Origin: a virus
DNA: 25,961 bases
IMG/VR virus record: IMGVR_UViG_3300013093_000240
Coordinates: 1-25,961 of that record
Strand: one strand, 5' to 3'
Part shown: piece by piece, positions 11,105-25,961 of the stretch
Position numbering within the stretch: the stretch's first letter is position 1
How the letters are laid out: each line of letters starts with the position of its first letter
The notes under the pieces: model-generated
The model's input: the letters and a program-made list of their open reading frames with translations, nothing else
Database searches by the model: none
Told to the model about the DNA's origin: nothing
Position numbers and translations under genes: made by a program

Positions 11105-11113
11105 AATTATTCC

Positions 11114-12121
11114 TTATTGTACCACTGGAGCGGTTAAATCACCGCCCGTAGATGAAGTATATTGGTCATTAATGGGCATAGATGTACTTACTGAACCGTC
11201 GCCATTATTTAGACTAACCGTACTATTACCCGATGAATCCGTTGTAGCCGTGGTGCCTGAATTTGATGAGCTAGACCCCAAAATATTTGGAAACGCATTT
11301 TGTAAAGTACTTAAAAATCCTGCCGTAGCCGGTTTGTATCCCGAAATCCCTTGAGTTCCTTGTGCTGGTGTACCAAACAAGCTATCTAATAAACTTGTAC
11401 CTGCTGCAGGAATACTAGATAAAGACCCTAACATTGAAAGAGGCGACATTTGGTTTTGTGTGGATACTGTAGCAGGAGCGTTGACAGCATTTACCAAGTT
11501 TGCGTAGTTTGTTACACCTTGGAACGGAGCATTCATTTGAGCTGCTCCAGTTGTAAGGTCTGCAGTTGTACCTTGTGTTCCGATTGTACCTAAACCAGCA
11601 GCAGCTTGAGCTCCTGTGCTTTGGTTTTGCAATGCTGCAGTCATTTGTTGTGCCTGCAATTGAGCCATAGCATTGGCTCTTGCTGTATCTACAGCGGTTT
11701 GACCACGTAAGCTACCAAAGTTACCAGAGCCAATAGCACCTGCTTCAGTGCCAGCAGTTTGCGTTGGTAGGATTTGATTAAGCTGTTGGTTTTCTGCTTG
11801 GAACAAACCACCTAATGCAGTGCTCGTATTTGGCGTAACGTTACCAGTCGTTGGGTCAACAATCCACGGATTAGCTGCACCGGTAGCAATCTGGTTTAAA
11901 TTAGTTTGGCCTTGAGTAAATGGATTATTTGGGCCAGCCAAAGTATTAACAGCCTGCTGCCCAGTTGTTTGACTAAAAGCTGGAGCACCAGCTGCAGCAG
12001 TACCAGCTTGGTTGATAACGTTTTGTTGCGCTGCATCCATCCATGATGGGAGCGTCGTTTGTGTCTGATTTGTATCAGTTAAAAGGTTATTTAACCCGGA
12101 TGAGGTTGATGTACCTGCCAT
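11114..12121 (-). CDS. Asn/Gln/Ala-rich putative internal virion protein (335 aa)
   Basis: 335 aa, rich in Ala, Gln, Asn, Thr and Gly with almost no charged residues after the N-terminus. The central part (about 120-180, QLNQILPTQTAG... ANAMAQLQAQQMTAALQNQS) is probably a long helix; the last 60 residues are Ser/Thr/Gly-rich. It lies between the 1011-aa and 616-aa virion proteins, overlapping the former by TAATG. Composition and place suggest a T7 gp14-like internal or ejection protein, but no family is recognised with certainty. Confidence 0.6.
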   Translation of the reverse strand: MAGTSTSSGLNNLLTDTNQTQTTLPSWMDAAQQNVINQAGTAAAGAPAFSQTTGQQAVNTLAGPNNPFTQGQTNLNQIATGAANPWIVDPTTGNVTPNTSTALGGLFQAENQQLNQILPTQTAGTEAGAIGSGNFGSLRGQTAVDTARANAMAQLQAQQMTAALQNQSTGAQAAAGLGTIGTQGTTADLTTGAAQMNAPFQGVTNYANLVNAVNAPATVSTQNQMSPLSMLGSLSSIPAAGTSLLDSLFGTPAQGTQGISGYKPATAGFLSTLQNAFPNILGSSSSNSGTTATTDSSGNSTVSLNNGDGSVSTSMPINDQYTSSTGGDLTAPVVQ

Positions 12122-15100
12122 TATGCTCTCGCTTTTTTCTGTGCTTGTAATAAATAAGCCAACGGGCCTTTGCTATCTGGGGGTAGATGCTTGGAGTCGT
12201 GCTTCTGTTTATGTTCTCTAACTGTTTTTAAAAATAAATCTAATACTTTTGCGCCAGCTTCATTACTACCGTTACCTAAACCAGATACTACATCAGCTGG
12301 AATAACAAACTCACCGTTTGCCAGCATAGCTGGTACACTGTCGCTAGTACCGTCCCCGTCACCACGCACGTATTTATTGTGCAATGAATTTAAACCGCCT
12401 TCACTAAAGAACTGTGGGTTGTGCCCCTCGGGCAAAGTCCTATCTTGGAACATCATATTGCCAGGCTGTCCGCCATTTTGCAAATGCGGTGCACTGGATA
12501 AAGGAGAACCTTTTAAACCAAACAAACTAGCATGTGTGGCATCATGTCCTTTTAAAAACACAGGACCACCATCTACTCTATGAATTATACCACCATTTTT
12601 AGCTTGTTGGATTTCTTGCAAATCCAAAGGTGTAATTTGCTGCGCTGCTGAAGTCGCAGCAGTTTCTGGTTTAAGAATAGCAGCTAAAGGATCAGCAATT
12701 TGAGTACCTTTAGAGAACGATGCTGTTCCCGGAGTGATTGTTTTCTTGGTTGCTGCCACGTTTGAAGTTCCTGTTGTACTTGTTCCTGTTGTGCTTATTC
12801 CAGTGCCAGTGCCAGTGCCAGTGCCAGTGCCAGTTCCTGATCCACTACCGCCGCTATTTCCAGCTATAATCCCTGCTACTACACCTGCTGCTGTACCAGC
12901 CCCAGTATTGGAAGAACCAGTACCAGCCGTTGTGCTAGTACTTGGTGTTGTGCTAGTGCTTGGTGTTGTACCAGTACTTGGTGTTGTGCTAGTACTAGCC
13001 GTTGTGCTAGTACCAGCCGTTGTGCTAGTACTTGGTGTTGTGCTGGTACTTGGTGTTGTACTTGATGTTGTGCTGGTGCTTGGTGTTGTACTTGATGTTG
13101 TGCTGGTGCTTGGTGTTGTAGATGACCCAATAATATTAGCAACAATATCGTTTGCCGATACATCACTACCAGTACCAGAAGTACCTGTTTCTCCAGTACC
13201 CGTTGTGCTAGTTGTTGGAGTTTCAGCTGTGCCGCTTCCACTGGAAATAGGCTGCGCATTGTTAAACGAGTCAGGTGCTCCAGTAACTGTAACTGTGCCT
13301 TTTGCACCTTGTACTATACCAGTTCCAGTTCCCGCAACTTGGCCGGATTCACCGGTAAAGGTTGCTCCTGTTGTGGCGCTTGCTTGTTGGTTAAGGCTGC
13401 CGTCTGCATTGTAAACAGCGCCGGTAGAACTAAGATATCCTGTAGACCCATCTGGATTTGTAACCGGTATGGTGTTTGCTAAATTAGCAATCTGTGCTGT
13501 GTTCTGTGTTAGGTTATCTGTTGATGGTTGCGGGCCAACTTGAGCAGATGGGGCAGATAAAGCAACATCTGGAATATTAAGCCCAGAAGCTAACTGACCA
13601 TTTGAAATCTGTGACAATCCACTTAACGTTGTGCCCAAAGAATTAGCTACACTATTAAGTGCTGATTGATTAGTACCGTATTGCTGTAAACTTGTATTTA
13701 ACGCATTTGTGCTACTTGTTGCAGCTGTTTGCAGTGGTGCAATAGCAGTGCTATATAAATTTTGTAAATTTGTATTGGCTGTTTGAAATGCAGTATTAGC
13801 TGGTGTATAAGCATTAACAGCATCTGTATAGGCTTTTGACGCAGCATTTGCAGCATCATAGTTTGCTTGTGTCGGGTTATCCTGAAACGCTTTGTACGCT
13901 GTGTTATACGCAGTTTCTGCTTGTGTTGCAGCAGTATATAATCCGCTTGCTGTTTGCTGTAAGTTTTGTACATTAGCATATTCAGGTTGATACTTATTTG
14001 TATAAGCGTCACTTAAAGCAGCTTGATCTGCTTTTGCTTGGTTGTATGCTGCAGTTGTAGCATCTGTACTAGAAGTAACAGTACTCTGTGCATTTTGTAA
14101 ATCTGTTAACTGCCCACTAGCTTTACCAGATAATAAATCTGCTTGAGCTTTTAACTGAGCCTCAAGGACAGAAGTACCATCAGGTGTAGTTGAAGATGTA
14201 GCTGACGGTGTAATCGAAGCAGAAGGAGCTGTTAACGCATTTAGCCCAGAACCCACAGTTGCGCCAATAGCCCCTGTTTCTGCTCCAGTGGCAACGTTGC
14301 CACCCTTAATAGCAGAACCAGCCGCACCAGTTGCGGCGCCGACAATAGCGTTTGCAACAGAACTCGGAATACTTCCGGACATAGCACTATTTGCTTGGCC
14401 ACCCAATGAGCTTAACGCGCCACTAATTGCAGTGTTTTCTAAAACTGATTTTGGATCTGCACCACCAGCAATAGCTTTAGTAGCAGCCAAAAGAGCTGAT
14501 GCCACTGGTGTGCTAATAGGTGCACTTAAACCCATCTGAGCAGCCAGCGCTGGCGATGTTAAACTATCTAACGCACCACCTGTCAACCCACCAGTAATAG
14601 CACCAGTCAAAATACCAGTTAACGGATCTTGTCCGGTGACAGCGGCTTTTACACCGCCCATAGTGCCGCCTGTTAAAGCACCGGTTCCTGCTGAATTAAG
14701 CAGTGACTGAAGCGGCACACCTTGTTGGAGAGCAGTATCTAAAGCACCAGATGTTAATCCAGTGCCAGTTCCACCTGCAGTAGTAGCCAAAGCTGTAGCA
14801 GCATCGGTAACACCAGCAGCAGTTGTGCCCGCTGGTAGACCCAATGACGCAGCATCTACACCAGCATCAAGAGCTTCGGCAGCAGTTTCATATCCCGCTG
14901 CTTGAGCAAATCCATCGGCTGTAGCCAATGTTCCCGCATCTAAAGCACCACCAGCCCCAGCTAAAGCAGGAGCTAAATATGGCGCTGCAATAGCTAATGC
15001 AGCAGTTCCTAAAGTTGCCCAACCACCAGGTATTGTATCATGTACAGACTTATCTAATTGGGCGGCCATGCCCAATAAACCGCCACCGCTTCCGTCTGTT

Positions 15101-15156
15101 CCAAGAGCATGGGAAAAGCCATCGGTTATAGCACTTATTGGATTACTACCGCTCAT
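12121..15156 (-). CDS. Very large Ala/Thr-rich virion protein with repeat tract and conserved C-terminal motif (1011 aa)
   Basis: Residues 1-310 are Gly/Ala-rich with several amphipathic hydrophobic stretches (LAIAAPYLAPALAGAGGALD; repeated TGGLTGG-like units). Residues 330-500 are a Tyr/Gln/Ala helical, coiled-coil-prone region. Residues 678-746 are a low-complexity tract of TTPSTS hexads, and 771-787 is a Gly-Thr dipeptide run. The last 160 residues change character: GGIIHRVDGGPVFLKG and, at 936-957, GTSDSVPAMLANGEFVIPADV. The latter motif recurs in tail-associated and tape-measure-like proteins of many phages (recollection). A structural role in the tail or ejected core is inferred; the Ser/Thr tract may be a flexible linker. 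The start overlaps the previous stop by ATGA. Confidence 0.7.
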   Translation of the reverse strand: MSGSNPISAITDGFSHALGTDGSGGGLLGMAAQLDKSVHDTIPGGWATLGTAALAIAAPYLAPALAGAGGALDAGTLATADGFAQAAGYETAAEALDAGVDAASLGLPAGTTAAGVTDAATALATTAGGTGTGLTSGALDTALQQGVPLQSLLNSAGTGALTGGTMGGVKAAVTGQDPLTGILTGAITGGLTGGALDSLTSPALAAQMGLSAPISTPVASALLAATKAIAGGADPKSVLENTAISGALSSLGGQANSAMSGSIPSSVANAIVGAATGAAGSAIKGGNVATGAETGAIGATVGSGLNALTAPSASITPSATSSTTPDGTSVLEAQLKAQADLLSGKASGQLTDLQNAQSTVTSSTDATTAAYNQAKADQAALSDAYTNKYQPEYANVQNLQQTASGLYTAATQAETAYNTAYKAFQDNPTQANYDAANAASKAYTDAVNAYTPANTAFQTANTNLQNLYSTAIAPLQTAATSSTNALNTSLQQYGTNQSALNSVANSLGTTLSGLSQISNGQLASGLNIPDVALSAPSAQVGPQPSTDNLTQNTAQIANLANTIPVTNPDGSTGYLSSTGAVYNADGSLNQQASATTGATFTGESGQVAGTGTGIVQGAKGTVTVTGAPDSFNNAQPISSGSGTAETPTTSTTGTGETGTSGTGSDVSANDIVANIIGSSTTPSTSTTSSTTPSTSTTSSTTPSTSTTPSTSTTAGTSTTASTSTTPSTGTTPSTSTTPSTSTTAGTGSSNTGAGTAAGVVAGIIAGNSGGSGSGTGTGTGTGTGTGISTTGTSTTGTSNVAATKKTITPGTASFSKGTQIADPLAAILKPETAATSAAQQITPLDLQEIQQAKNGGIIHRVDGGPVFLKGHDATHASLFGLKGSPLSSAPHLQNGGQPGNMMFQDRTLPEGHNPQFFSEGGLNSLHNKYVRGDGDGTSDSVPAMLANGEFVIPADVVSGLGNGSNEAGAKVLDLFLKTVREHKQKHDSKHLPPDSKGPLAYLLQAQKKARA
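12801..12836. repeat. Six tandem copies of a 6-bp unit
   Basis: CAGTGC repeated five times and ending in CAGTTC. On the coding (-) strand it gives the Gly-Thr run of the 1011-aa protein. Such runs change length easily by slippage in whole 6-bp steps, keeping the frame. Confidence 0.9.
12919..13125. repeat. Minisatellite of 18-bp and 12-bp units within the 1011-aa gene
   Basis: About 200 bases built of imperfect 18-bp units such as GTTGTGCTAGTACTTGGT, mixed with two 12-bp short units (GTTGTACTTGAT). It encodes Thr/Pro/Ser hexads (TTPSTS) on the - strand. There are no unique spacers, so it is a coding minisatellite and not a CRISPR array. The opposite strand is open too, giving a spurious Val/Pro/Leu repeat frame. 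Confidence 0.9.
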
Positions 15157-15533
15157 AGCTCAGCCATCCATAAATAGTGTGGTTTATCTGATTTTTGAAC
15201 TTTCAATCCAAGTTTATTTAACAGCGGTAAAGTTTTTTCTAATACCGGACCACCATCTTCGCCATACACTTTTTTAAACCCGGAATTTTTAACTTGCCCA
15301 ATAAAATATTTCATTGCGGATTTAATTTTGTTTGGAGTATCTGCAGTAAAAAAGTTTATTTCTGCAGCGTTATTTCCAATGTTTACTAAAAATAATAGTG
15401 AATCACCGTGCTGTACTAAGTGCCCAACTTGCTTTTGAATCATCGCGTTCATTGTTTCCATTAAACGAGCAGTATCGGCTTGGCTGTGGCCAAAACGCTT
15501 GTGATCTGCTTGGATGATTTCGGATGGGGTCAT
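15153..15533 (-). CDS. Small hypothetical protein of the tail module (126 aa)
   Basis: A mixed alpha/beta protein with TPSEIIQADHKRFGHSQADT at the N-terminus and a C-terminal part, YGEDGGPVLEKTLPLLNKLG then LKVQKSDKPHYLWMAEL, whose shape recalls the end of GNAT-like small virion proteins such as T7 gp13. No acetyl-CoA binding loop is visible, so this comparison is weak. I chose the ATG at 15531-15533; the frame also has a TTG two codons earlier. Neither has a clear ribosome site. It is the first gene after the conserved 18-base element and a terminator, and it overlaps the 1011-aa gene by ATGA, so it probably heads the internal-protein sub-operon. Confidence 0.65.
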   Translation of the reverse strand: MTPSEIIQADHKRFGHSQADTARLMETMNAMIQKQVGHLVQHGDSLLFLVNIGNNAAEINFFTADTPNKIKSAMKYFIGQVKNSGFKKVYGEDGGPVLEKTLPLLNKLGLKVQKSDKPHYLWMAEL

Positions 15534-15555
15534 ATTCAATAAGATTGTGGTCTAC

Positions 15556-15573
15556 ATCTACTAATGCAAAAAA
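15556..15573 (-). promoter_or_regulatory. Conserved intergenic element, copy A
   Basis: On the - strand this reads TTTTTTGCATTAGTAGAT, identical over 18 bases to copy B at 22012-22029. Its first 15 bases equal the + strand sequence at 490-504. It lies directly after a terminator stem and before the 126-aa gene. It may be a phage promoter or processing signal; a good -35 box is not visible. Confidence 0.6.
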
Positions 15574-15591
15574 TAGGGCAAAAACGCCCTA
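15568..15591 (-). terminator. Rho-independent terminator after the 89-aa gene
   Basis: Reading on the - strand: TAGGGC stem, loop GTTTTT, GCCCTA stem, then six T. It starts 2 bases after the TAA of the 89-aa gene and splits the late region between the tail/gp10-like genes and the internal-protein genes. The short 6-bp stem may allow read-through. Confidence 0.75.
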
Positions 15592-15593
15592 AA

Positions 15594-15863
15594 TTAGTGG
15601 GATTTACCGTTAATGATTAAAGCTGTTTCTTTAGCCCAATCCTGCCAGTTGTCAAATGTTTCTGGGTTTGGAACGGGGAAAGCTGAAAAGGTAAAGGTAC
15701 TGGAAATTACAGATGCTGTATCTTTCCAGTTTTCTTCTGAGTTATATGGCACATTTAACTGACCATAGTAAATGATAAAGTTACCATTCCAATCTTCCCA
15801 GCTAGACAACTCAGGAGAAAACGGAAAAAACGGTTGGTTTCGTTTATTGACAAAAGTTGTCAT
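15594..15863 (-). CDS. Hypothetical small tail-module protein (89 aa)
   Basis: 89 aa, rich in Trp, Asn and Phe (SSWEDWNGNFIIYYGQLNVP; ETFDNWQDWAKETALIING). The two W-x-D-W segments at roughly residues 22-25 and 72-75 look like an internal duplication of a short motif. It has no membrane segment or catalytic motif. Its ATG overlaps the stop of the gp10-like tail gene (ATGA), so it is translated with it and may be a small virion or assembly protein. No family is recognised. Confidence 0.7.
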   Translation of the reverse strand: MTTFVNKRNQPFFPFSPELSSWEDWNGNFIIYYGQLNVPYNSEENWKDTASVISSTFTFSAFPVPNPETFDNWQDWAKETALIINGKSH

Positions 15864-18016
15864 GGACGCTCGTCACCAAACTCACAAGTAACTAAGTTAC
15901 GGCCCATTTCATAATTGCCGTCAATTTCGTTAGATTCAAACTTTAAACGAATTAAGCGGTGCTCAACACGAAGGTCAATTTTACCGGTATCTTGGGTAAA
16001 ATAGTATGGCCCGGAATCCTCTTCCATGGGGCTTGATGCAAACTTGCGGCCTAAAATGGTCATGGACATAGTACCGGTTTGCAAGAAGTTAGGCTCAACA
16101 CGGCGCAAGTGCATGCGGCGGTTTACTCCAACTAAACCATCTTGGCTTGGGTTACCTGTTAGCCAGCCAACATCGCTGGTGGTAATGCTAGAATAAACAG
16201 CTTGCTCTGTATTTAGTCCAACTTTGTTTTGGCCAAACTCATGCTGCCAAATTGTAAATCCACCAGTTTGTACATATACTGGTGTGCCAGCTACAGGAGT
16301 TATTGGGTTTTCTTCGCTAAATGTTACTAATGTAACACCAGGTGTGCCAATGGTAGTATTATAAATATTGGTGGAAGCTGTTACTAAATATGTTTGGTTG
16401 AAGTCTTGCGTTTGTGAAAAAGCAAAAATTGAACCCGGGGGTAACTGAGGTGTTACATCGCCAGCAATATACATCTGGTATACTGTAGGAGCGGGCAAAC
16501 TTGCTGGGTGGTTGATAACGTAGAGCGGTGCGCTAAAAGACGGATTGTAATTCCAATCAGCCCAAATAGGTGTTGGAAAAATCTCAGTAGTCCAACCACA
16601 AGAGCGTTGTGCACCTTCAGCGGAGCCAGCATCATACCAGAGCTTATCTTTAGTATTATAGATAATTGCGTCGGTGCATTCTGTTGCTGTACCGCGGGGA
16701 TAAAAGAACCAAATCTCATTGTAGCGTGGGATTTTAGTAGCCCATACTTTTTGGCGTTGTGTGTAATTGATGTTGTCAAAGAGCCAGTTTACGTTCTTAT
16801 CATTAGGCACCACCTGTACACTACCATTGTAGGCATAGAAGCGGTCAACACCCATCCACCAATAAACACCATCCATCTCCACAATAGCATTGGAAGACAT
16901 GATTGAGATTTGGCTAGAAATAATATCGTAGTTCCAGAACTGATTTACTGTTACAGTAGAAGATGCAGATGAGTTAAAGGAAACACGAATAAGAGAGTCA
17001 GTAGCCCAGAATAGTCCAGCTGGGGAGTTAGTACCCCCACGCATTGGTATACCTTTAACAATCTTGGAAGAGGCTACGTTAGTTTGGTTGGCTAATGGGC
17101 CATTCCAGTCGTAAAAGTTTTGCTGCAAGTATGTGCTGCTGACGTTATTGTTGGCAATATAGCCATGCGAGCCGTACACAAAAATAAACGGATACAATAC
17201 GCAAACACCGCCGTCAACACTAATTGGTTGGTATGTTGGGTTTTGGCCTGCGCTATCTGATAAGCCTGTGAAGTTCCAAGTATTTGCAACAGACGGCGCA
17301 ATATTACCTACTAGAACTTGTGATGGAACACCGTTGTCAATATCCTGTAAGTTATAACCTGGATGGGCAAAAATAGACAGTTGGCCGCCTTGTGGGCTAA
17401 ATTGAGCATCAAATTGCCAAGTAATGCGATAAGGCCCATTAGCTGGGTCTTCAGTAAATGTTGGTGTGTTGTTTAGCCAAACGTTTGTTGGGCTACCTGA
17501 AATGGTTCCAGTAACGTTTACTGTGGTATTTGGGGATGTATATGTGGCAGTTGTAGTTACAAAATTTACCGGCGTTGTCTGGTTAAAGATAACATTTGTT
17601 CCGGTGGGGAAAAGCGCTGTTACGTTACCTGCAATAGTAAAGCTAGAACTTGTATGTGATACAAGAGTAAATTGTGAAGTACCTGGGAGAATATTAGCTG
17701 TAAATGGTCCGCTACCACTACCAAAGTTAATGCCGCAAGTAAACACATCAAGCTCTTGGTAGTTACCTGCAAAAATGTAGTTTACGCCATTATATGGCTG
17801 TACTACCATACCGCGGTAAATGCCAACGTTACTAGTAAACAACGTGCGGTAACCACCCATCTTTTTAGGGTCACCACGCTGAAAACGACACCACACACCA
17901 TCAGTGTATTGGTCGTTTTGGAATTGTGTACCGTCGCGTTTAATCCCAGCCGGAATTGCTAAGCTGTAAATTGAGGTATATTGCGAGGTATCCTGTTGCT
18001 GATTATCAGCCGCCAT
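15860..18016 (-). CDS. P22 gp10-like tail hub / packaged-DNA stabilization protein (718 aa)
   Basis: A long beta-rich protein that fits the tail nozzle of short-tailed phages, which closes the portal channel and holds packaged DNA. The N-terminus (SIYSLAIPAGIKRDGTQFQN...WCRFQRGDPKKMGGYRTLF) and the C-terminus (RRMHLRRVEPNFLQTGTMSM...YYFTQDTGKIDLRVEHRLIR...YEMGRNLV) have the pattern of this family, and repeated aromatic blade-like segments (DGVYWWMGVDRFYAYNG; RYNEIWFFYP) fit a beta-propeller. It is longer than P22 gp10 (about 470 aa); a Thr/Val-rich insertion near residues 100-200 explains part of it. It abuts the fibre-like gene upstream (stop TAA followed directly by ATG). The family call is from pattern recognition. 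Confidence 0.75.
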   Translation of the reverse strand: MAADNQQQDTSQYTSIYSLAIPAGIKRDGTQFQNDQYTDGVWCRFQRGDPKKMGGYRTLFTSNVGIYRGMVVQPYNGVNYIFAGNYQELDVFTCGINFGSGSGPFTANILPGTSQFTLVSHTSSSFTIAGNVTALFPTGTNVIFNQTTPVNFVTTTATYTSPNTTVNVTGTISGSPTNVWLNNTPTFTEDPANGPYRITWQFDAQFSPQGGQLSIFAHPGYNLQDIDNGVPSQVLVGNIAPSVANTWNFTGLSDSAGQNPTYQPISVDGGVCVLYPFIFVYGSHGYIANNNVSSTYLQQNFYDWNGPLANQTNVASSKIVKGIPMRGGTNSPAGLFWATDSLIRVSFNSSASSTVTVNQFWNYDIISSQISIMSSNAIVEMDGVYWWMGVDRFYAYNGSVQVVPNDKNVNWLFDNINYTQRQKVWATKIPRYNEIWFFYPRGTATECTDAIIYNTKDKLWYDAGSAEGAQRSCGWTTEIFPTPIWADWNYNPSFSAPLYVINHPASLPAPTVYQMYIAGDVTPQLPPGSIFAFSQTQDFNQTYLVTASTNIYNTTIGTPGVTLVTFSEENPITPVAGTPVYVQTGGFTIWQHEFGQNKVGLNTEQAVYSSITTSDVGWLTGNPSQDGLVGVNRRMHLRRVEPNFLQTGTMSMTILGRKFASSPMEEDSGPYYFTQDTGKIDLRVEHRLIRLKFESNEIDGNYEMGRNLVTCEFGDERP

Positions 18017-19291
18017 TTAGAACTGTCCGCCACTAATTAAGGTTGCTGTAAGTCTTGCATTGATGGTTACCACCGGAGCAGATAAGTTAGTGGCATTTAT
18101 ATCAATAATTTCAGTACCGTTTGCAGCCAAACCTAAGATGCCCAAACCAGATAAATACATACCAGTTGTATTATCATTTAGGAATGAGTACGAAGGTGCT
18201 CCAGCATTACCGTTAATTGCTTTAAATGTAGAGGAAGATGAAGAGTTAAGAATGTACAAAAACTCGCCATCACTTAACAATGTATAAATGTTACCGGTTG
18301 TTAGCGCTAATGGGGCTTGACTACTACCTTGATTTTGGAAAGTAATGTTATAACCAGATTGATTGGTATTATTAACCAAAATATAAAGCTGGGTAATAGC
18401 GGGTAACGTTACAGCTAATGTCTGTGTACGAGTACCAGACTGTGCAATGTAAGTTTGAATAATAGGCGCATTTGATACTAAGTTCAAAGTATTGCCGGAA
18501 ATTGCGTCTACGTCATAGGTTGCTGCAGTAAACACTAAATTGTTTGGTGTTGTCCATCCGACCGTAATAAATCCGTTTGTACTCTGGTTATAAAAAATAT
18601 AACCTGAATCCCCAGGATTTGTGTTAATGGATGTGTTGCCGTTAATTAGTTGTGGGGATGATGGAGTAAATGTTAATGTGCCGGATCCACTATTTCTAAA
18701 TGCAATAAACCAACCAGAAGAAAGGGTTGAAACTGAAGGGAGAGGAAAGTTAATAACTCCGCCAACCCAGTTATAAGTTACAGCGCGACTTGAATCCGTA
18801 ATAGTTGGAACTGTAGAAACGTTTACAACGTTTTGTGTCGTTGCTAATTGTCCGTTTACGGTAGTTAATCCGGCGCCAGCCAATGACGCTGCATCAGCAG
18901 AAGACGTGCCTGTGCCAAATGTTACATTATGCCAAACACCTGCGGCTGTTGTATTATCTGTTAAATAGAAATACTTAGACACACCTGCAGCAATGGTTAC
19001 TGAATTACCACCAAGAAAATCTTCAACTACGAATGAGTTTGAGCCAAGGTTACGGAATAAAATATCAGAGCCTAAAGTGCCCTGATCTGCTTCCGGTAGT
19101 TTAATTGCCAAACCTGTAGTTGTAGCAGTGCAATCCATAATACGAGTAGCTGGAACTTCCCCAGTACCTTGATTTACGATTGCAGGCCAAAATAGCGGAG
19201 TATTTACTCCAAATGACAGATTAGAATAAGATACATCCGTTGGGGTAACAACGGTGCCAGTAAACGGTGATGTGTAAATTGGAGTAGTCAT
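18017..19291 (-). CDS. Tail fibre-like beta-structured virion protein (424 aa)
   Basis: Rich in Thr, Ser, Asn and Gly with alternating hydrophobic residues, as in trimeric beta fibres. The last 70 residues include APSYSFLNDNTTGMYLSGLG followed by ILGLAANGTEIIDI, a segment seen near the C-terminal ends of many phage tail fibres and spikes. The middle repeats short strand units (GNTLNLVSNAPIIQ; LPAITQLYILVNNTN). No chaperone (S74) or enzyme motif is visible. It sits between an adaptor gene and the gp10-like hub gene. A receptor-binding or neck-fibre role is inferred from composition and position; it could also be a decoration protein. Confidence 0.65.
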   Translation of the reverse strand: MTTPIYTSPFTGTVVTPTDVSYSNLSFGVNTPLFWPAIVNQGTGEVPATRIMDCTATTTGLAIKLPEADQGTLGSDILFRNLGSNSFVVEDFLGGNSVTIAAGVSKYFYLTDNTTAAGVWHNVTFGTGTSSADAASLAGAGLTTVNGQLATTQNVVNVSTVPTITDSSRAVTYNWVGGVINFPLPSVSTLSSGWFIAFRNSGSGTLTFTPSSPQLINGNTSINTNPGDSGYIFYNQSTNGFITVGWTTPNNLVFTAATYDVDAISGNTLNLVSNAPIIQTYIAQSGTRTQTLAVTLPAITQLYILVNNTNQSGYNITFQNQGSSQAPLALTTGNIYTLLSDGEFLYILNSSSSSTFKAINGNAGAPSYSFLNDNTTGMYLSGLGILGLAANGTEIIDINATNLSAPVVTINARLTATLISGGQF

Positions 19292-19294
19292 TTA

Positions 19295-19909
19295 TTAGGG
19301 TTCCTGAACCGTAGTGTTGCGATCCACGCGACGTGTATCGTCTTCTTTTTTGAGCGCGGTAATTGCGTCTGTGTAGTAGCTTTTCCAAACAGGTAGTTTA
19401 TCTAAAGCCTTTAAATATCCTTGGGCTTGTAGCAAAGCGCCATAAAGCATAGCTTGCGGTGCAATTGAAGTCCACAAATTTTGCTGATTGTTTTCATCTA
19501 ATGGTTGGATTTCAGCGTAATAGATGATTTCAACTGGATAAGATTGATCTGGGGCTGGCGCAAAGTTCCAATTACTATAGTCATAATCTGCATAGTATAC
19601 TGGCTTACCACCATTTGATTCTGACAGATACTGTGATACATAGTCTTGGCTTCTTAATAAAACTGGCTGGCCGTTAACCTTCATAGATATGGTTTTACGC
19701 CAACGGGCAGGTTTATTAAGAATAGTTTGGTTTGTTGCTAGATTAGTTTCAACAACAATAAGCTGCATATAAGTCTTCAATTCAGCAGCAATTGAAGATT
19801 CAGCCAACGCAATAAGGTTAGGGATCTGCGCAATGAAATCAGCGTCATCACGCTCCATGTATTGCTGGATGTTTAACACCAGCGAATCGTAGGTCATTAT
19901 TACGCTCAT
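19295..19909 (-). CDS. Tail adaptor / head-tail connector-like protein (204 aa)
   Basis: 204 aa with the pattern of podovirus adaptor proteins (P22 gp4 / T7 gp11-like): N-terminal MTYDSLVLNIQQYMERDD, then IPNLIALAESSIAAEL, a beta middle with PVEIIYYAEIQPLDENNQQN and a helical end IAPQAMLYGALLQAQGYLKA. Such proteins form the ring under the portal that receives the tail hub. The first ATG (19907-19909) overlaps the previous stop as ATGA; a second ATG four codons on (19895-19897) begins MTYDSL, where related proteins usually start, and may be the real one. Neither has a strong ribosome site. It is followed after 3 bases by the fibre-like gene. Confidence 0.75.
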   Translation of the reverse strand: MSVIMTYDSLVLNIQQYMERDDADFIAQIPNLIALAESSIAAELKTYMQLIVVETNLATNQTILNKPARWRKTISMKVNGQPVLLRSQDYVSQYLSESNGGKPVYYADYDYSNWNFAPAPDQSYPVEIIYYAEIQPLDENNQQNLWTSIAPQAMLYGALLQAQGYLKALDKLPVWKSYYTDAITALKKEDDTRRVDRNTTVQEP

Positions 19910-20976
19910 CTTGTGTAGTAGCTTATGTTAGGTTGGAAATAGATTGGAGACTTATCACGATCCTCATCAGCAGCTTGTTGGAATGCTTTTTCAGCTTGAG
20001 CTTCTAAATACTGGATTCGAGTTAGCTCAACACCAGGAAGCTGCAAAGACATTGCATGGGAGAGTGATTTTTGGATTGAATTAATCCAACGATCTGGAAC
20101 ATAGATCTGATCTGTCAACGAACCAACGTCCTGCATTTGTTTTTCAACAACAAGCTGGAACATTTGGAAGTCGTTGTTTGGTACAGGCCACAAATACATT
20201 GAAGGCTCAATGGTACGGTCAAACCAGTACTGTAATGATCGAACTGATGGGAACTGCTTGTTTGGAAGGTTCCAGTAATCATCGCGGTTTAAGCGAGCCA
20301 ATGGAATAACTTGTTGGCTAGTTGAGAATACAATTTGACGCACAGTAAATGTGCTTGTTGGATCAGCGTTACGCAAACGGTAGTAAAGATGGTTTGGCGT
20401 AATGGCGATGTTAAAATACACCCATTGACGATCAGATAGTGTAGTTTCTGGAAACTGTTGGACTTCTGTCCAAAGGATACCATCATCACTAACTTCGTAA
20501 ATAAGATTGTATGTAGTTGTACCACCACCAGTTGCGTAGCCGTTCCAACCAACGTAAAACACTGGTTGGGCTTGTGCATATTGCACACCCAAATAGTTTT
20601 TGGCAAGCGTAGATGTAGATACTAAATTAAGGTTTTGTTCAAACGCACCAGGGGCCAGTGGATTGTCAATAGGTAAGTATTCTGCTGCTTGGGAATTAAT
20701 AATGTAAACCCAATTAGCCTCACGAACATCAATTACAGTCTTCGGTAAGTACAGCTGCTGTTGCGCAGTTAGCGCACCATACAGTTGGTTTTCCAATAGC
20801 CAAAGATTTACACCTTTGTTGGATAGGTTTTGCAAGTTGTAAAACAAGGCTTGCTTAGCCGCACCAACGAGCTCAGGTGTCATCTCTTCAGCTGTTTTAC
20901 CAGCTTCACGAAACGCGTAAGAAATTAACTGGTCAACATTAATTGTTGTTTCGCCAGTGGTATTACTATAGGCCAT
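19906..20976 (-). CDS. Second, longer tail adaptor-like protein (356 aa)
   Basis: The N-terminal 75 residues (QLISYAFREAGKTAEEMTPE...LFYNLQNLSNKGVNLWLLE) and the C-terminal part (LARLNRDDYWNLPNKQFPS...SMYLWPVPNN...VPDRWINSIQKSLSHAMSLQ) follow the adaptor/tail-accessory pattern. Between them, about residues 120-235, is an inserted beta domain (YVGWNGYATGGGTTTYNLIY...WVYFNIAITPNHLYYRLRN) that looks like a carbohydrate-binding or discoidin-type jelly roll. It may decorate the neck or bind glycans; this is inference. It overlaps the following adaptor gene by ATGA. Two adaptor-like genes in tandem suggest paralogues with separate positions in the tail. Confidence 0.65.
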   Translation of the reverse strand: MAYSNTTGETTINVDQLISYAFREAGKTAEEMTPELVGAAKQALFYNLQNLSNKGVNLWLLENQLYGALTAQQQLYLPKTVIDVREANWVYIINSQAAEYLPIDNPLAPGAFEQNLNLVSTSTLAKNYLGVQYAQAQPVFYVGWNGYATGGGTTTYNLIYEVSDDGILWTEVQQFPETTLSDRQWVYFNIAITPNHLYYRLRNADPTSTFTVRQIVFSTSQQVIPLARLNRDDYWNLPNKQFPSVRSLQYWFDRTIEPSMYLWPVPNNDFQMFQLVVEKQMQDVGSLTDQIYVPDRWINSIQKSLSHAMSLQLPGVELTRIQYLEAQAEKAFQQAADEDRDKSPIYFQPNISYYTR

Positions 20977-20977
20977 A

Positions 20978-21145
20978 TTACCTTCCGCGGCCAGCGGCTC
21001 GCTTGGTTACTTTATTGGGTAGTTTATTTGAAGCTGGGCCAGCTTTGATAAACTCCTTGGCAACCTTTTTGGGGATGCCAAGGGTAGATTTACCAGCTGC
21101 AGCAGCGTACATTGCGCCTTGTTGCGCTTTGGACTTTATGGGCAT
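20978..21145 (-). CDS. Small basic phage protein (55 aa)
   Basis: 55 aa: [20 protein letters not shown], then [16 protein letters not shown], a linker, [15 protein letters not shown]. This K-S-K-A-Q...MYAAA[15 protein letters not shown]...LP-x-x-V pattern is one I know from small proteins of many phages and metagenomic phage contigs; its function is unknown. The ATG overlaps the end of the Lys/Gly-rich gene by 10 bases, and the stop is followed one base later by the start of the adaptor gene. The strong charge suggests nucleic acid or membrane-phosphate contact. It was confirmed by direct translation of the - strand. Confidence 0.8.
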
Positions 21146-21969
21146 GTTCCACCAGTGTTCATTTTCTTAACTTTACCGCCACGCTTTTGAGCGGGGATGG
21201 CACCGGCTGGGCTTGTACCACCTGGAGCTTGAACAGCAGGAGCTGGCATTGGAGCAGGAGTTTGACCCATACCAGTCATTGCTGGAGTTTGATTCATTTC
21301 TGTACCAGCAAACTCACCTTGTTGGCCTTTGCCTAAATATTTACGAGCGTTGTTTAAACGAGCCAATTCTTTAGCTTGCATTAAATCTTGTAGCGTTGAT
21401 CCGCCAACTGCCATCTTCTTAACACCGCCGCCACATTTGTATTTGTTTGGGCCGCCTTTAGCACCAGAAGCAGAATCAGCAGCTTTAGGGCGCTCAGTCA
21501 CTTCTTTAGCTTTGGTAGAACCAGCGGGCATTTTGTTAGTCTTTTTAACATCGCTGCCTTTAAAATTTGGCTTTTCAGTAGCTTTAGATGGCGCATCGGC
21601 TTTACCCGGCTTAATATCTTTGGTCTTTTTAATGTTATCCAAATCACCGGAAGTTTTTTTGGCTTCGTAAACATTGGTTACAGAGCCACCTTCTTTGTAG
21701 GCATTACCTCCGCCGCAAAACTTTTTAACTGTACCTTCTTTTTTCTTGGCACGGCCACCTTTTTTGAGGGCTGTTAAATCAGTCTTTTCACCTTCGTGCA
21801 TTTGGTTATCGTGCATACCAAAGGCTTTTTTAACAATCTTTTTGTCTTGTTTGGTATCAGCTTCTTCCACGGACTTACGGTCGCGTTTAGTGAAGTTTTT
21901 TACTTCGCGTTGTACAGAGCCGCCTTCTTTGAAGTGCTGCATCTTAGGTAATTTTGTAAATCCGTCCAT
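21136..21969 (-). CDS. Lys/Gly-rich basic repeat protein (277 aa)
   Basis: 277 aa, very rich in Lys, Gly and Ala. It contains recurring short units: FKEGGSV (13-19), [39 protein letters not shown] and [13 protein letters not shown] at the end. The GGK/KKM-GG units resemble those in uncharacterised phage proteins near tail or head genes. It is probably largely disordered and binds DNA or another acidic partner; no enzyme motif is present. A good ribosome site (GAGGAAAC) precedes the ATG. It is the first gene after the lysis cassette, behind conserved element B and a weak terminator-like hairpin. A virion or scaffold-type role is only inferred. Confidence 0.65.
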
Positions 21970-22044: not shown

Positions 22045-22566
22045 CTAAATCTTGGCTAAAAACAGTTCTCTTTCGCGTTTACGGCGGTTTTCTAGAACCG
22101 CTGGTTTATTCCACATCAAGATAGCGTCAGCCGCACCTTGCATGTCATTTGCGTTGATTTTCTTGACAACGGTAGAGTTCTTAAAAGCACTAGCTCCAAT
22201 ATTGAAGCAGAGGCTGTATAAGGCGTCAAATTGGTTTTGGGCTAGGGGCACCTTTACTGAACCTTCAACGGCCTCGCTACACCACTTTAAATCCTTTCTA
22301 AGCAGGTCTTCTACCTGGTCGTTAGTTAGGGTGGCGTTAATAAGGTCTTTTTCATCATCTTTGATAAGGTGGCCTACTCCAATGGTCCAAAGGCCCTTAG
22401 TGTCCTTGTATGCCTTGGTACGGGCGCCTTCCTCTTTGGTAATGAAGTCTAGTGTGGATTTTGCAATTGCCATGATGTTTTCTTCAATATTAGTATAGTT
22501 ATCAGTGAAGTGGATAGCGGCAGCAATGCCCAATACCCATAAAAGTACTACAAATAGCTTTTTCAT
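22045..22566 (-). CDS. GH24 endolysin (T4 lysozyme type) with N-terminal membrane anchor
   Basis: 173 aa muramidase that cleaves the MurNAc-GlcNAc bond of peptidoglycan for host lysis. The catalytic triad is plain: E46 in EEGARTKAYKD, D55, and T61 in WTIGVGH, the same E-x8-D-x5-T spacing as T4 lysozyme E11/D20/T26. Residues 3-20 (KLFVVLLWVLGIAAAIHF) form a single hydrophobic segment after two lysines: either a signal-anchor-release (SAR) segment or a cleavable signal ending AAA. Export would then be Sec-dependent and not need large holin holes. AAAGGAG on the - strand gives a strong ribosome site for this start; M32 (MAIAKSTLDF) could be an internal start for a cytosolic form but lacks a good site. 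Confidence 0.92.
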   Translation of the reverse strand: MKKLFVVLLWVLGIAAAIHFTDNYTNIEENIMAIAKSTLDFITKEEGARTKAYKDTKGLWTIGVGHLIKDDEKDLINATLTNDQVEDLLRKDLKWCSEAVEGSVKVPLAQNQFDALYSLCFNIGASAFKNSTVVKKINANDMQGAADAILMWNKPAVLENRRKRERELFLAKI

Positions 22567-22606: not shown

Positions 22607-22825
22607 TCAGTCTTCTTTAGATCCGATTTTGATACCCGCCACAAGGCCCACAAAGGCCCCAACGATCATTTGAAAAGCGGGTGTAATGGCTTTAAAGATT
22701 TCGTTATTATCTACTTTTTCGTTAAAAAGTCCCAAAAGTAATACTACAACCATAGATAAAAGAATAACGGTAAGTGTAATAGTAGCTGTAAGGGTTACGT
22801 AAGCTGTTAACTTATCTTTATTCAT
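22607..22825 (-). CDS. Two-span small membrane protein, holin-like (72 aa)
   Basis: 72 aa with transmembrane segments at about 9-34 (long, LTATITLTVILLSMVVVLLL) and 49-67 (PAFQMIVGAFVGLVAGIKIG), a charged loop FNEKVDNNE between them and the tail SKED. Size, topology and position directly between the spanin pair and the endolysin fit a holin or an antiholin. The start overlaps the Rz stop as ATGA. A second candidate holin lies upstream of Rz, so which one triggers lysis cannot be told from sequence. Confidence 0.7.
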   Translation of the reverse strand: MNKDKLTAYVTLTATITLTVILLSMVVVLLLGLFNEKVDNNEIFKAITPAFQMIVGAFVGLVAGIKIGSKED

Positions 22826-23232
22826 TTACTTAACGAGTCGTATTGTTGGTAACAGGCGGAGAGGGCTGATCGCAAGATGTCGGCTCTGGCAGCTTCCCGT
22901 TCAAGAAAAGTTGCATCTTCGGCAGAAAGGGACAGCCCAGTTCCACTTTGTCCATTTGCGGCGCCTTGGGTGCGACTGGGACGGCTGCGCAGCTGCACAA
23001 GAGCATCAGCGAGGCTGTTATTGATAGCAGCAATTTGAGCATCTTTGTCTTTCCTTATTTGGTCTGCGGCGGCTTGGTGTTCTTCTTGGAGTGTTTGGGT
23101 GAGGGCTTGTTGGCTCGCCTTGTAGCGATCGAATCGCGCAGCTTCCAAGCTAAAGCCAGTATAGCCAGCCAAAAATAAAAGTGCAGCAAATAATCCAATT
23201 TTGACATAAGTAAGTATAGGTAATGGAAACAT
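22822..23232 (-). CDS. Rz: Rz-like inner-membrane spanin
   Basis: 136 aa; with Rz1 it bridges and fuses the inner and outer membranes in the last step of lysis of Gram-negative hosts. Residues 9-28 (TYVKIGLFAALLFLAGYTGF) form an N-terminal membrane anchor, followed by a long charged coiled coil (about 35-80, RYKASQQALTQTLQEEHQAA) and a periplasmic C-terminus. A second frame inside it encodes the matching lipoprotein Rz1, which is the strongest evidence for the call. It overlaps its upstream neighbour by TAATG and the next gene by ATGA. Confidence 0.88.
   Translation of the reverse strand: MFPLPILTYVKIGLFAALLFLAGYTGFSLEAARFDRYKASQQALTQTLQEEHQAAADQIRKDKDAQIAAINNSLADALVQLRSRPSRTQGAANGQSGTGLSLSAEDATFLEREAARADILRSALSACYQQYDSLSK
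22830..23042 (-). CDS. Rz1: Rz1-like outer-membrane spanin lipoprotein, nested in Rz
   Basis: 70 aa read in another frame entirely inside Rz. MLKLLLSITASLMLLCSC is a lipoprotein signal: hydrophobic core and lipobox L15-C16-S17-C18, with C18 as the lipidated residue. The mature part is short and Pro-rich (AAVPVAPKAP; LPEPTSCDQPSPPV), as Rz1 proteins are. It pairs with the Rz periplasmic end across the periplasm. Nesting of Rz1 within Rz is a known arrangement (lambda). Unlike other overlapping frames here it has all hallmarks of its family, so it is kept. Confidence 0.88.
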   Translation of the reverse strand: MLKLLLSITASLMLLCSCAAVPVAPKAPQMDKVELGCPFLPKMQLFLNGKLPEPTSCDQPSPPVTNNTTR

Positions 23233-23456
23233 TATTGATCGGGTTCTGTTTTGGATTTCATCGCCACACTGGCGCCACCAGCAGCCGACACAATTCCAAG
23301 GGATTCGGCAAGTTCACGGATGCTGACAGTGTTGTGCATCACCTCATAAAAAGCCAGCGCAATAACGGCTGTTAGACTAATAAGCCAAGTAACACGGCCA
23401 ATATCGTATGTGTTATTGTCTTTGCCAGTTAGGAGTTGCTTAATTATATCGTTCAC
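23232..23456 (-). CDS. Putative holin-like protein (74 aa)
   Basis: 74 aa: short basic N-terminus (MNDIIKQLLTGKDNNTYDIG), one clear transmembrane helix at about 21-40 (RVTWLISLTAVIALAFYEVM), a linker, a weaker Gly/Ala segment at 52-66 (SLGIVSAAGGASVAM) and a charged tail KSKTEPDQ. Proteins of this shape (TGKDN-x-TYD-x-GRV...) occur in lysis cassettes of many phages and are usually annotated as holins. Position just before Rz agrees. Membrane topology of one or two spans cannot be decided. It overlaps the neighbours on both sides (ATGA, TAATG). Confidence 0.7.
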   Translation of the reverse strand: MNDIIKQLLTGKDNNTYDIGRVTWLISLTAVIALAFYEVMHNTVSIRELAESLGIVSAAGGASVAMKSKTEPDQ

Positions 23457-23692
23457 TTTTGGTCACGTAAAACATCTAACTTGTCTTCAATACGATGGAC
23501 GGCTTTTAGAACCTCGTCCCAGCGACTTGCAAAATCATCTTTGCGGACATAGTTGTCAGAAAGGTGATTGCGCAAATTGGAGACGTCATCTTTGAGCTCC
23601 TGAACTGCGTTCCAGAGTTCTTTGCAGAACCAGCCGATTGCCACGCAAATAAGGGGCAATACGGTGTTAATAAGGGTTTGAAGATCCATCAT
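23453..23692 (-). CDS. Membrane-anchored coiled-coil protein of the lysis cassette (79 aa)
   Basis: 79 aa with an N-terminal transmembrane segment at about 5-24 (QTLINTVLPLICVAIGWFCK) and a charged helical remainder (ELWNAVQELKDDVSNLRNHL, then VLKAVHRIEDKLDVLRD) with heptad-like spacing. Similar small proteins (QTLI...GW...LW-x-AVQELK-x-D) are common in phage lysis regions; function is not established. It may assist or regulate holin assembly. The ATG overlaps the last oxygenase stop as ATGA, so translation is coupled across the boundary between the AT-rich oxygenase block and the lysis genes. Confidence 0.7.
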   Translation of the reverse strand: MMDLQTLINTVLPLICVAIGWFCKELWNAVQELKDDVSNLRNHLSDNYVRKDDFASRWDEVLKAVHRIEDKLDVLRDQK

Positions 23693-24273
23693 TTATATCC
23701 TATAAAATGGGCTAAAGTTATTCGGTATGATTCACCATCGGTTTTAATTTCCTCCGCTTGATGCTCCATGCAACCATGGAAAATTACAACTCTGTTATGT
23801 TTAGCTAAAACTGTTTCGTTATATTCAGGAAATATAAAATTTCCGCCATCAAATTCGCCTTCTTTTAAAAACGTAACTGCTGTAATAGCAGAATCATCTC
23901 TGTGGGGCAAATATTTTTCTCCATTTTTGTAATAATTTAAAAGAACCGCATCTCTGTTTGAATAACGTATATGGTTAAACGATGGGTCAAAATTTTTAAA
24001 AACTTCTGTTAAATTATCACAAAATATTTTTCTACTTACATTTAAGATTTTTGATACTGAAATGTCTTTTTGGAATAGTTCATTTAAAAAAATGCCTCTT
24101 CCAGTTTTATTAGAAACGCCGTTTTCGTCTATACTTGAATTGGTTGAATCGGCGTTTAAAGCGTAGGGTTCTAATGCACTAACTTCTTGCATAATTAATG
24201 CAAGTTCTTCATCAGTATAAAATTCATCAATTACAATGTAATTAAATGGTTTTGTAACTAGATGTATATTCAT
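23689..24273 (-). CDS. Fe(II)/2-oxoglutarate-dependent oxygenase, prolyl 4-hydroxylase type (194 aa)
   Basis: The double-stranded beta-helix signature is complete: H124-x-D126 in YLPHRDDS, distal H171 in MEHQAEEI and R184 in YRITLAHF, which would bind 2-oxoglutarate. FDGGNFIFPE (141-150) and RVVIFHG (161-167) are the usual strands between. It would hydroxylate a protein or other substrate using O2 and 2-oxoglutarate, in the cytosol; the substrate is not shown. The N-terminus (FNYIVIDEFYTDEELALIM) is typical of P4H-like enzymes. It is the last of a four-gene oxygenase run and overlaps both neighbours by ATGA. The DNA is much richer in A+T than the lysis and tail genes. Confidence 0.88.
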   Translation of the reverse strand: MNIHLVTKPFNYIVIDEFYTDEELALIMQEVSALEPYALNADSTNSSIDENGVSNKTGRGIFLNELFQKDISVSKILNVSRKIFCDNLTEVFKNFDPSFNHIRYSNRDAVLLNYYKNGEKYLPHRDDSAITAVTFLKEGEFDGGNFIFPEYNETVLAKHNRVVIFHGCMEHQAEEIKTDGESYRITLAHFIGYK

Positions 24274-24773
24274 TGTAATGTAAGTTTAAATGCAACCGTT
24301 GTTCTTAATCCGAAAAAAGACCTTGATGGGGCTTCTGCATAATGTAGATCTGTACTATCAAATAAAACACCGCGGTTGGGTGTGGGATATTGGCAATTTA
24401 CTTCGTTTTCTTTTTCAATAATAATTGTTTGCCCGTTCCAACTTACATGCCATTCTTTACATGGATAATATAAAAACGTAAAATATCTGTTCTTTTTGTC
24501 ACTTTCAACGTCCCTATGCAATTCACCGGATAAACCAAACGTTTGTCCGTTTGCATAAACTCTGTCTAAAATAAAATTTGCGTTGCTTAAATTTTGTATT
24601 TTATTAAAAAAGATATCTGTAAAAAATTTATCTTCATTTAAATTCATAAACCAAAAAAGTTTACTAGAATCGTCACTAAATCCTGTAAAACTCCAGTTTC
24701 CGCCGTTATAAATTTTATTGTAAACGTACTCCCATTCTTCTTTGGACAATACGTTATCGTATATGATTGCCAT
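24270..24773 (-). CDS. Fe(II)/2-oxoglutarate-dependent oxygenase (167 aa)
   Basis: Starts with an enzyme-like lead DNVLSKEEWEYVYNKI and shows H86-x-D88 in ELHRDVES, distal H144 in DLHYAEAPS and R157 in FFGLRTTVAF, 13 residues later, the same distance as in the 194-aa neighbour. Strands RYFTFLYYPC and NRGVLFDST fit the double-stranded beta-helix. The protein is close to minimal size for the fold. It differs too much from the adjacent oxygenases to be a recent duplicate. Substrate unknown. It overlaps the upstream DUF6445-like gene by 20 bases. Confidence 0.82.
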   Translation of the reverse strand: MAIIYDNVLSKEEWEYVYNKIYNGGNWSFTGFSDDSSKLFWFMNLNEDKFFTDIFFNKIQNLSNANFILDRVYANGQTFGLSGELHRDVESDKKNRYFTFLYYPCKEWHVSWNGQTIIIEKENEVNCQYPTPNRGVLFDSTDLHYAEAPSRSFFGLRTTVAFKLTLQ

Positions 24774-25440
24774 TTAATTGCCCTTCTTTCATCCACCAAA
24801 CCAATGTAATTCTTGGCGTATTATAGTACCCGTTTACGGGGTGATATGCTGAATGATAAAGGTTTGCTGGAAAAATTACAAGTCTATTTGGCTTCATTTC
24901 TACATGCCCTAACTTTTCCCAACAACTTGGGTCAGAGCCCCAGTAGTCTAAATCTTCAATTACGGAGTCATCTTTTAACTTATTAAAGAAAGCAGTACCG
25001 CCAAAACAGTCTTCTTCGGAGTTTAGATAGACAAGGCAAGTATATAAATTGGCGTTTGGAACAAAATTATCTTGATGCGGCACGGCATAATTTGCACGTT
25101 TAGCGTTTATTTGTTTAAACCAATTTGCTTCCGGATGGCCCACAACAGCAAATGAATTTTTGCCATATTGTTCTTCAATTATGGTTTTTGCTACATTAAA
25201 TATTTCATACGGTTTATCTAAAAAAGATAACCTACAGTCATAGTAATCAATGTAATTTTTTGTGCCGTTTTTGTATTTCCAATTCCCTACGGAAGAAGAA
25301 AAAACAACTTTTTGTAATTCAGAATAATTTTTAAATAAATTATCTATTACTAAAATTTTATTATTTTCGCTAAATAATATATTCCCTTGCATATTATTTG
25401 AAACGGCAAATACTTTATCATATAAAAAGGGCTCATTCAT
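24754..25440 (-). CDS. DUF6445-like protein, 2OG-Fe(II) oxygenase fold (228 aa)
   Basis: The C-terminal half matches, from memory, DUF6445: YAVPHQDNF (H122-x-D124), LYTCLVYLNSEEDCFGGTAF, then KPNRLVIFPANLYHSAYHP (H196 or H200 as distal ligand) and R210 in TPRITLVWW. The N-terminal 110 residues form a cap domain with ILVIDNLFKNYSELQKVVF. An oxygenase reaction is therefore likely, but activity for this group is inferred from fold only. It overlaps the upstream oxygenase by 8 bases and the next by 20, and its first half is extremely A+T-rich (25321-25380 has 6 G+C in 60). Confidence 0.78.
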   Translation of the reverse strand: MNEPFLYDKVFAVSNNMQGNILFSENNKILVIDNLFKNYSELQKVVFSSSVGNWKYKNGTKNYIDYYDCRLSFLDKPYEIFNVAKTIIEEQYGKNSFAVVGHPEANWFKQINAKRANYAVPHQDNFVPNANLYTCLVYLNSEEDCFGGTAFFNKLKDDSVIEDLDYWGSDPSCWEKLGHVEMKPNRLVIFPANLYHSAYHPVNGYYNTPRITLVWWMKEGQLNGNHIR

Positions 25441-25961
25441 AAACTACCCAGCCGGTTAATACGTATTTATCTCCAATCAGGGGTGGATTACCTCTATGAG
25501 TATGCGTAAATCCAGTGGGCCAAATAAGCAACGTGCCTTTTTTTGGTTTTATTCTTAAATGCTGATATAAAAATTCAGTTTCGCCACCTTCTTCAACATC
25601 ATTTAGATACACCATCCATGCAAGTACTCTGTGCGATATATTTTTATTATCGGACTCACAGTGCCATGCGTGATACCCTTCTCCGGGTTTGGTTTTTTGC
25701 AATTTATGTTCTAAAACTATATGCCTAGCATGTTTTTTAAGAATTGCAAAATTGTTTGAATACATTGAGTACCCTACGTTCCAAAATACAGAATCAAATG
25801 TATCGAGAAATTCTTCTGTATTGGCATTACGATCTAAAAATAACATAGTATCGTCTTTAGTGGTTTTTTCTACCCCTTCAAAATCTTGTCGGTTAAGCAA
25901 CTGTTCTTTTGGTGCTTTTTCAAAATAAGAAATTAAACCGCTACAAAAAGCGTCATCAAAC
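25433..25961 (-). CDS. 2OG-Fe(II) oxygenase with HxE metal motif (5' end beyond window)
   Basis: The frame is open to the right edge, beginning with residues FDDAFCSGLISYFEKAPKEQ, so the gene starts outside the window; an internal TTG at 25898-25900 is not a likely start. The metal site reads YHAWHCES, i.e. H-x-E instead of H-x-D (H at 25661-25663), with distal His in FTHTHRGNPP and Lys in GDKYVLTGW in place of Arg for 2-oxoglutarate. VYLNDVEEGGETEFLYQ and PKKGTLLIWP complete the core. This H-x-E/K form is, to my knowledge, normal for a phage and marine subfamily of these enzymes. Substrate unknown. It stands upstream of three further oxygenase-type genes. Confidence 0.82.
   Translation of the reverse strand, partial: FDDAFCSGLISYFEKAPKEQLLNRQDFEGVEKTTKDDTMLFLDRNANTEEFLDTFDSVFWNVGYSMYSNNFAILKKHARHIVLEHKLQKTKPGEGYHAWHCESDNKNISHRVLAWMVYLNDVEEGGETEFLYQHLRIKPKKGTLLIWPTGFTHTHRGNPPLIGDKYVLTGWVVYE

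Follow-up and report, generated by a model that had tools for sequence, protein, structure and literature searches.

What does a tailed phage gain from encoding four 2-oxoglutarate (2OG)-Fe(II) oxygenases in a row, directly beside its lysis genes? Such enzymes are common and unexplained in aquatic phages, where they are usually classed as auxiliary metabolism. The window analysed here, from an uncultured phage, is a whole linear virus record of 25,961 bases (IMG/VR IMGVR_UViG_3300013093_000240). Its plus strand carries a replication block (exonuclease, ssDNA-binding protein, ribonucleotide reductase and DNA polymerase) and its minus strand a virion block (p277, p55, p356, p204, p424, p718, p89 and p128; 15153–21969), which is also found in relatives devoid of oxygenases. 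Downstream of the virion block, four large minus-strand ORFs of 796, 616, 335 and 1011 aa (6864–15156) have no PHROG match; they are possibly ejection or internal virion proteins. The lysis genes, also on the minus strand, encode an endolysin (22045–22566; PHROG 7, E = 3e-48), a holin-like protein (22607–22825), an Rz-like spanin (22822–23232), a small membrane protein, s74 (23232–23456), and T79 (23453–23692), which overlaps s74 and is the first gene of this conserved block. A 70-aa lipoprotein-like ORF (MLKLLLSITASLMLLCSC..., 22830–23042), which lies within the Rz-like gene in a different frame, resembles an embedded Rz1 spanin. Promoter and terminator scans stayed close to the shuffle expectation, and a host search in bacterial genomes led to one short MAG contig.

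The sequence-only reading of this DNA had described four consecutive, overlapping genes with HxD/E...H...R/K signatures at 23689–25961, upstream of the lysis genes, and both points hold. The genes are on the minus strand: A (25433–25960; P4H-like, PHROG 61), B (24754–25440; DUF6445/PF13640, PHROG 1644), C (24270–24773; PHROG 274) and D (23689–24273; PF13640, PHROG 61). The iron triad and the downstream R/K for 2OG are complete in all four (H100-E102-H155-K165 in A, H122-D124-H196 or H200-R210 in B, H86-D88-H144-R157 in C and H124-D126-H171-R184 in D), so that none of the metal sites, whose absence from most of the enzymes would have counted against that reading, is missing. These residues are largely conserved across family alignments of closer relatives, which are small (5–8 sequences each) for B, C and D. 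A, B, C and D score 50.6, 33.2, 28.0 and 29.8 bits, respectively, against PF13640 (2OG-FeII_Oxy_3), above the curated Pfam cut-off of 27 bits, and B also matches DUF6445. A and B overlap by 8 nt, B and C by 20 nt, C and D by 4 nt, and D and T79 by 4 nt; the lysis cassette therefore adjoins D with no gap, an operon-like arrangement. A has no start codon and runs open into the contig end, so its 5' end and the N-terminus of the protein are absent. Four is thus a minimum, and the array may be longer. An exact 50-base probe for extension of the contig to the right gave no match.

A matches solved bacterial prolyl-4-hydroxylases (P4Hs) by sequence (E = 2.7e-7), followed by a weak match to the collagen lysyl hydroxylase LH3. 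The AlphaFold model of C (pLDDT 87, pTM 0.86) has the HIF prolyl hydroxylase PHD2 as its best solved match (E = 4.7e-9, TM 0.78). The double-stranded beta-helix fold is thus assigned to C by its model and to A by its sequence match to P4H structures. D matches solved P4Hs only weakly (E = 0.52), and B has no match among solved P4H sequences. Two PHROG labels point elsewhere. The label "minor coat protein" of PHROG 1644 is wrong for B. The label "DNA endonuclease V" of PHROG 274 is ruled out for C, whose model is a 2OG oxygenase fold; it seems to be an artefact of naming, since cyanophage P-SSM2 has denV as a distinct gene nearby. This label and the location of relatives of C near the replication genes of P-SSM2 could suggest that the enzymes modify or repair DNA or RNA, in the manner of AlkB or TET. 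We consider this very improbable, since the AlkB-type profile PF13532 (cut-off 31.2 bits) gives only 14.5 bits for D and no match for A, B or C, C has a prolyl hydroxylase fold, and the genes occupy a late position.

The four enzymes are mutually diverse, as had been noticed from the sequence. Pairwise BLASTP among them gives no significant similarity (best E = 0.045), which excludes tandem duplication. A quick tree puts A and C on separate branches and pairs B with D; the placement of B, C and D is unsure because their branches are long, those of B and D being flagged as unsafe by the program. A has its nearest relative (58%) in the enzyme that ends an array on contig L004, and B (54%) in a member of a five-oxygenase array on contig L003; the nearest relatives of C and D (about 34–37%) are in cyanophages and other contigs. 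The A-B-C-D order was searched for, as the sequence-only reading had advised, and was found nowhere else in the viral contig and phage collections; a fixed four-gene order is thus rejected. The idea of a built pathway is not supported either: the nearest relatives of A and B are single members of differently composed arrays.

L003 and L004, two uncultured phages, each have a run of five oxygenases, flanked by a glycine-rich tail adhesin on one side and by the lysis region on the other. B has its nearest relative in the L003 array and A in that of L004, but both arrays differ from the window in membership and order, and lack C and D. L003, L004, L118 and L007 share a partial order: the glycine-rich adhesin, a "ferrochelatase-like" enzyme, then a P4H-like enzyme. 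A small ORF directly follows the adhesin in L003, L004 and L118, L003 and L004 have two additional PF13759 enzymes, the L004 array includes a methyltransferase, and some additional members of such arrays are relatives of A or B. The arrays are mix-and-match. The phage collection contains no isolate with the L004 adhesin. Just upstream of this adhesin and its array, L004 encodes a fibre-like protein with collagen-like GYSGFSGYSG repeats (L004:956-1708), whose match to Pfam Collagen is below the cut-off.

The "ferrochelatase-like" proteins (L003:4818-5396 and its relatives in L004, L118 and L007) belong to PHROG 2954, the phage "ferrochelatase" family, and the family is homologous to cyanophage and pelagiphage genes that bear this label. 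The match between PHROG 2954 and the enzyme that opens the L003 array has E = 1.4e-40, this L003 protein has a conserved HxD...H, and the 50 best solved matches of its model are all 2OG-type enzymes, with a bacterial prolyl hydroxylase first. The S-SCSM1 homologue is annotated as a 2OG oxygenase by its depositors and as a ferrochelatase in RefSeq, and PHROG 2954 is reported to be co-enriched with 2OG oxygenases (PMC11561400). Sequence and model together indicate that the "ferrochelatase" protein of this family is probably a 2OG oxygenase.

The site that A–D occupy was compared in 80 contigs carrying T79, many of which have the same virion block at high identity. In relatives whose upstream region is complete, the order there is GT2-methyltransferase, GT2, GT9-like, tail fibre, variable cargo and T79. 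The cargo includes glycine-rich tail domains, 2OG oxygenases, M15 peptidases, lectin domains, a methyltransferase, HNH nucleases and cupins; oxygenases were present in only 5 of the 80 loci in the initial scan. In MW202545, an annotated phage whose virion block is homologous, the lysis gene is likewise preceded by genes for a tail fibre and an endo-neuraminidase. The closest relative across the junction, L084, has a T79 that is 96% identical at the protein level, and a cupin in the slot upstream of it. The DNA identity between the window and L084 is 83–95% in the first 180 bases of T79 and 25–37% upstream of its start. The start codon of T79, after D, is thus a sharp mosaic breakpoint, where identity falls to chance. 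That A–D are 2OG oxygenases, and that they occupy a variable accessory site, is almost certain.

The base composition had been taken as pointing to a transferred accessory module. The G+C counts on which this relied (9 of 60 at 24601–24660 and 6 of 60 at 25321–25380, against 32 of 60 at 12841–12900) are exact on recount, and the cassette has 32.4% G+C compared to 42.2% for the late block. The codon usage of A–D is at distances of 0.140 and 0.106 from the two other blocks of the window, beyond the resampling maxima of 0.068 and 0.058, and these two blocks also differ from each other (0.080). The neighbouring genes on the left do not share the composition of the cassette, a comparison that concerns the left side, the contig ending on the right. 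However, the GC3 of the cassette (0.25) is about that of the left-hand block p796–p1011 (0.26), and oxygenase genes in other phages are AT-richer than their own locus in 72 of 76 and 34 of 37 loci. AT-richness is a mark of these genes as a family. It would fit a transfer without being proof of one, and composition as sole evidence of transfer is rejected. The accessory module is retained, on the grounds of the sharp breakpoint and the differing codon usage.

The window ends before any adhesin gene, and the link of the oxygenases to an adhesin comes from relatives. Their adhesin, NSSG, is a glycine-rich tail protein whose N-terminus (MTMNSSGPISLGG...) is conserved, and for which there are 205 loci. 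Its matches are tail fibre/host-specificity PHROGs and, below the cut-off, the Gp38 adhesin. Among 34 dereplicated complete intervals, the glycine-rich tail adhesin is present in all four that contain oxygenases (L106, L118, L131 and L145) and in 2 of the 30 that do not (p = 3e-4). A second set, from a separate NSSG-anchored fetch, comprises 38 dereplicated glycine-rich loci with sufficient downstream sequence. A 2OG enzyme lies at most 1.3 kb downstream of the adhesin in 22 of them and a cupin in 10 more, 32 of 38 together. Of 103 control ORFs, which are further large ORFs from these loci, 11 have an oxygenase or a cupin. The cupin and F profiles were made only after the pattern had been seen, but the count was already 20 of 38 before extra profiles were added. 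For four short NSSG proteins that lack the glycine-rich part the count is zero. The loci in both tests are related and not independent, and the four loci that are positive in the first set are also part of the second. A looser rule, which pairs glycine-rich proteins of any kind with any cupin or oxygenase, gives a weak p of 0.06 in the first set, at one arbitrary threshold.

In many relatives without 2OG oxygenases, L084 (9701–9997), L178, L186, L200, L214 and others, the gene slot behind the glycine-rich tail protein is filled by a small cupin with a conserved HxH and a later H.

The sharply varying content of the site, and the absence of oxygenases from it in most relatives, would also be expected of passenger genes of no steady benefit that come and go where recombination is frequent. 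This is very improbable: all four active sites are complete despite deep divergence, and the enzymes are linked to one adhesin type far more than chance would allow.

Taken together, A–D would be the visible end of an accessory 2OG-Fe(II) oxygenase array, located in the part of a tailed phage genome that serves receptor binding. By comparison with relatives, the array would lie between the tail fibre/adhesin genes and the lysis genes, with the adhesin itself off the contig, and the overlaps suggest that it is expressed together with the late genes. Judging from the intact sites and the fold, each enzyme would bind Fe(II) through HxD/E...H and 2OG through the downstream R/K, and hydroxylate its target with O2. 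Peptidyl side-chain hydroxylation is the likeliest reaction, because the best matches of A (by sequence) and C (by fold) are protein prolyl hydroxylases. The likeliest targets would be proteins of the phage itself, either its glycine-rich tail adhesin or its fibres. Array members would be gained, lost and swapped along with adhesin types, hence the mix-and-match content. Virion proteins, a host target and modified nucleotides had been named as possible substrates from the sequence; the position of the arrays in relatives, at the fibre–lysis junction after a glycine-rich adhesin, favours a role in the virion or in receptor binding over modified nucleotides. We give slightly less than an even chance to the proposal, drawn from sequences and models, that these are interchangeable peptidyl-hydroxylase-type enzymes of a receptor-binding module, probably acting on the tail adhesin or fibre. 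The relatives of C among P-SSM2 replication genes and a relative of A near sugar-nucleotide genes in S-SSM7 count against the adhesin role and imply that these oxygenase families serve elsewhere too.

The target could also be a glycan. The enzymes, together with phage glycosyl- and methyltransferases, would then act on the host surface polysaccharide or on a virion-attached glycan, altering receptors or preventing superinfection. A conserved trio of GT9-like, GT2 and GT2-methyltransferase fusion genes (L147:385-828, L128:3967-4953 and L157:6537-7784) precedes the tail fibre gene in more than 30 related contigs. Its position directly upstream of the fibre, the methyltransferase of the L004 array and the sugar-nucleotide neighbours of the cyanophage relative of A agree with action on a glycan, but glycosyltransferases are also present in many relatives without oxygenases, and A and C resemble protein hydroxylases, which makes it quite unlikely.

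An auxiliary metabolic role, as proposed for cyanophages (PMC3037559), is unlikely as well. By lowering 2OG, or by hydroxylating small metabolites or host proteins (for instance a translation factor), the enzymes would reprogram the host during infection. A bacterial prolyl hydroxylase acting on EF-Tu (PDB 4iw3) is among the matches of the L003 ferrochelatase-like model. However, a late position between fibre and lysis genes and a linkage to one adhesin type are unexpected for this role, and drawing down 2OG does not require four divergent enzymes.

Under the preferred reading, action on tail proteins, the adhesin linkage offers a specific and testable alternative to auxiliary metabolism. If the oxygenases do modify virion tail proteins, their number and turnover would be explained, and post-translational chemistry would be part of phage host recognition. 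A broader, rather doubtful extension is that phages of this group mature their receptor-binding adhesin by chemical means. Behind the glycine-rich adhesin gene would come a small partner gene and then a beta-helix metalloenzyme that can be exchanged, either a cupin or one or more 2OG oxygenases; swaps of these enzymes would tune adhesin stability or host recognition. The array would then be a phage-encoded post-translational host-range system.

Multiple 2OG oxygenases in one phage are already known. The roles proposed for them are in 2OG/nitrogen metabolism and DNA repair. As background to viral P4H genes, a Baltic Sea study refers to tail-fibre collagen (PMC9301287), and structure-based annotation has shown that EGLN3-like phage proteins are widespread (PMC12774648). 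A literature search, in which subscription journals were mostly not covered, returned no report of an adhesin-linked tandem array or of the cupin alternative, and the former appears to be undescribed in the literature searched.

Bacterial and viral P4Hs (Bacillus 5hv0/3itq and PBCV-1 vCPH 5c5t) have the catalytic core of A, with its two histidines and its lysine, and the prolyl-hydroxylase fold of C; A differs from them in having HxE instead of HxD, and no collagen-like substrate is visible within the window. Like the window, the HTVC023P-type pelagiphages have several non-orthologous oxygenases near one another (eight in pelagiphages), often beside "ferrochelatase" genes and in varying order, but these are not adjacent and no adhesin linkage has been reported (PMC9599517). 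The T4-like cyanophages have the same families (PHROG 61, 274 and 1644) and many divergent 2OG oxygenase copies per genome (PMC3037559), with 24 in S-SCSM1 (PMC9602691). Their copies are mostly scattered or in other contexts, whereas in the window four overlapping genes stand at the fibre–lysis junction of a phage whose virion block is unrelated.
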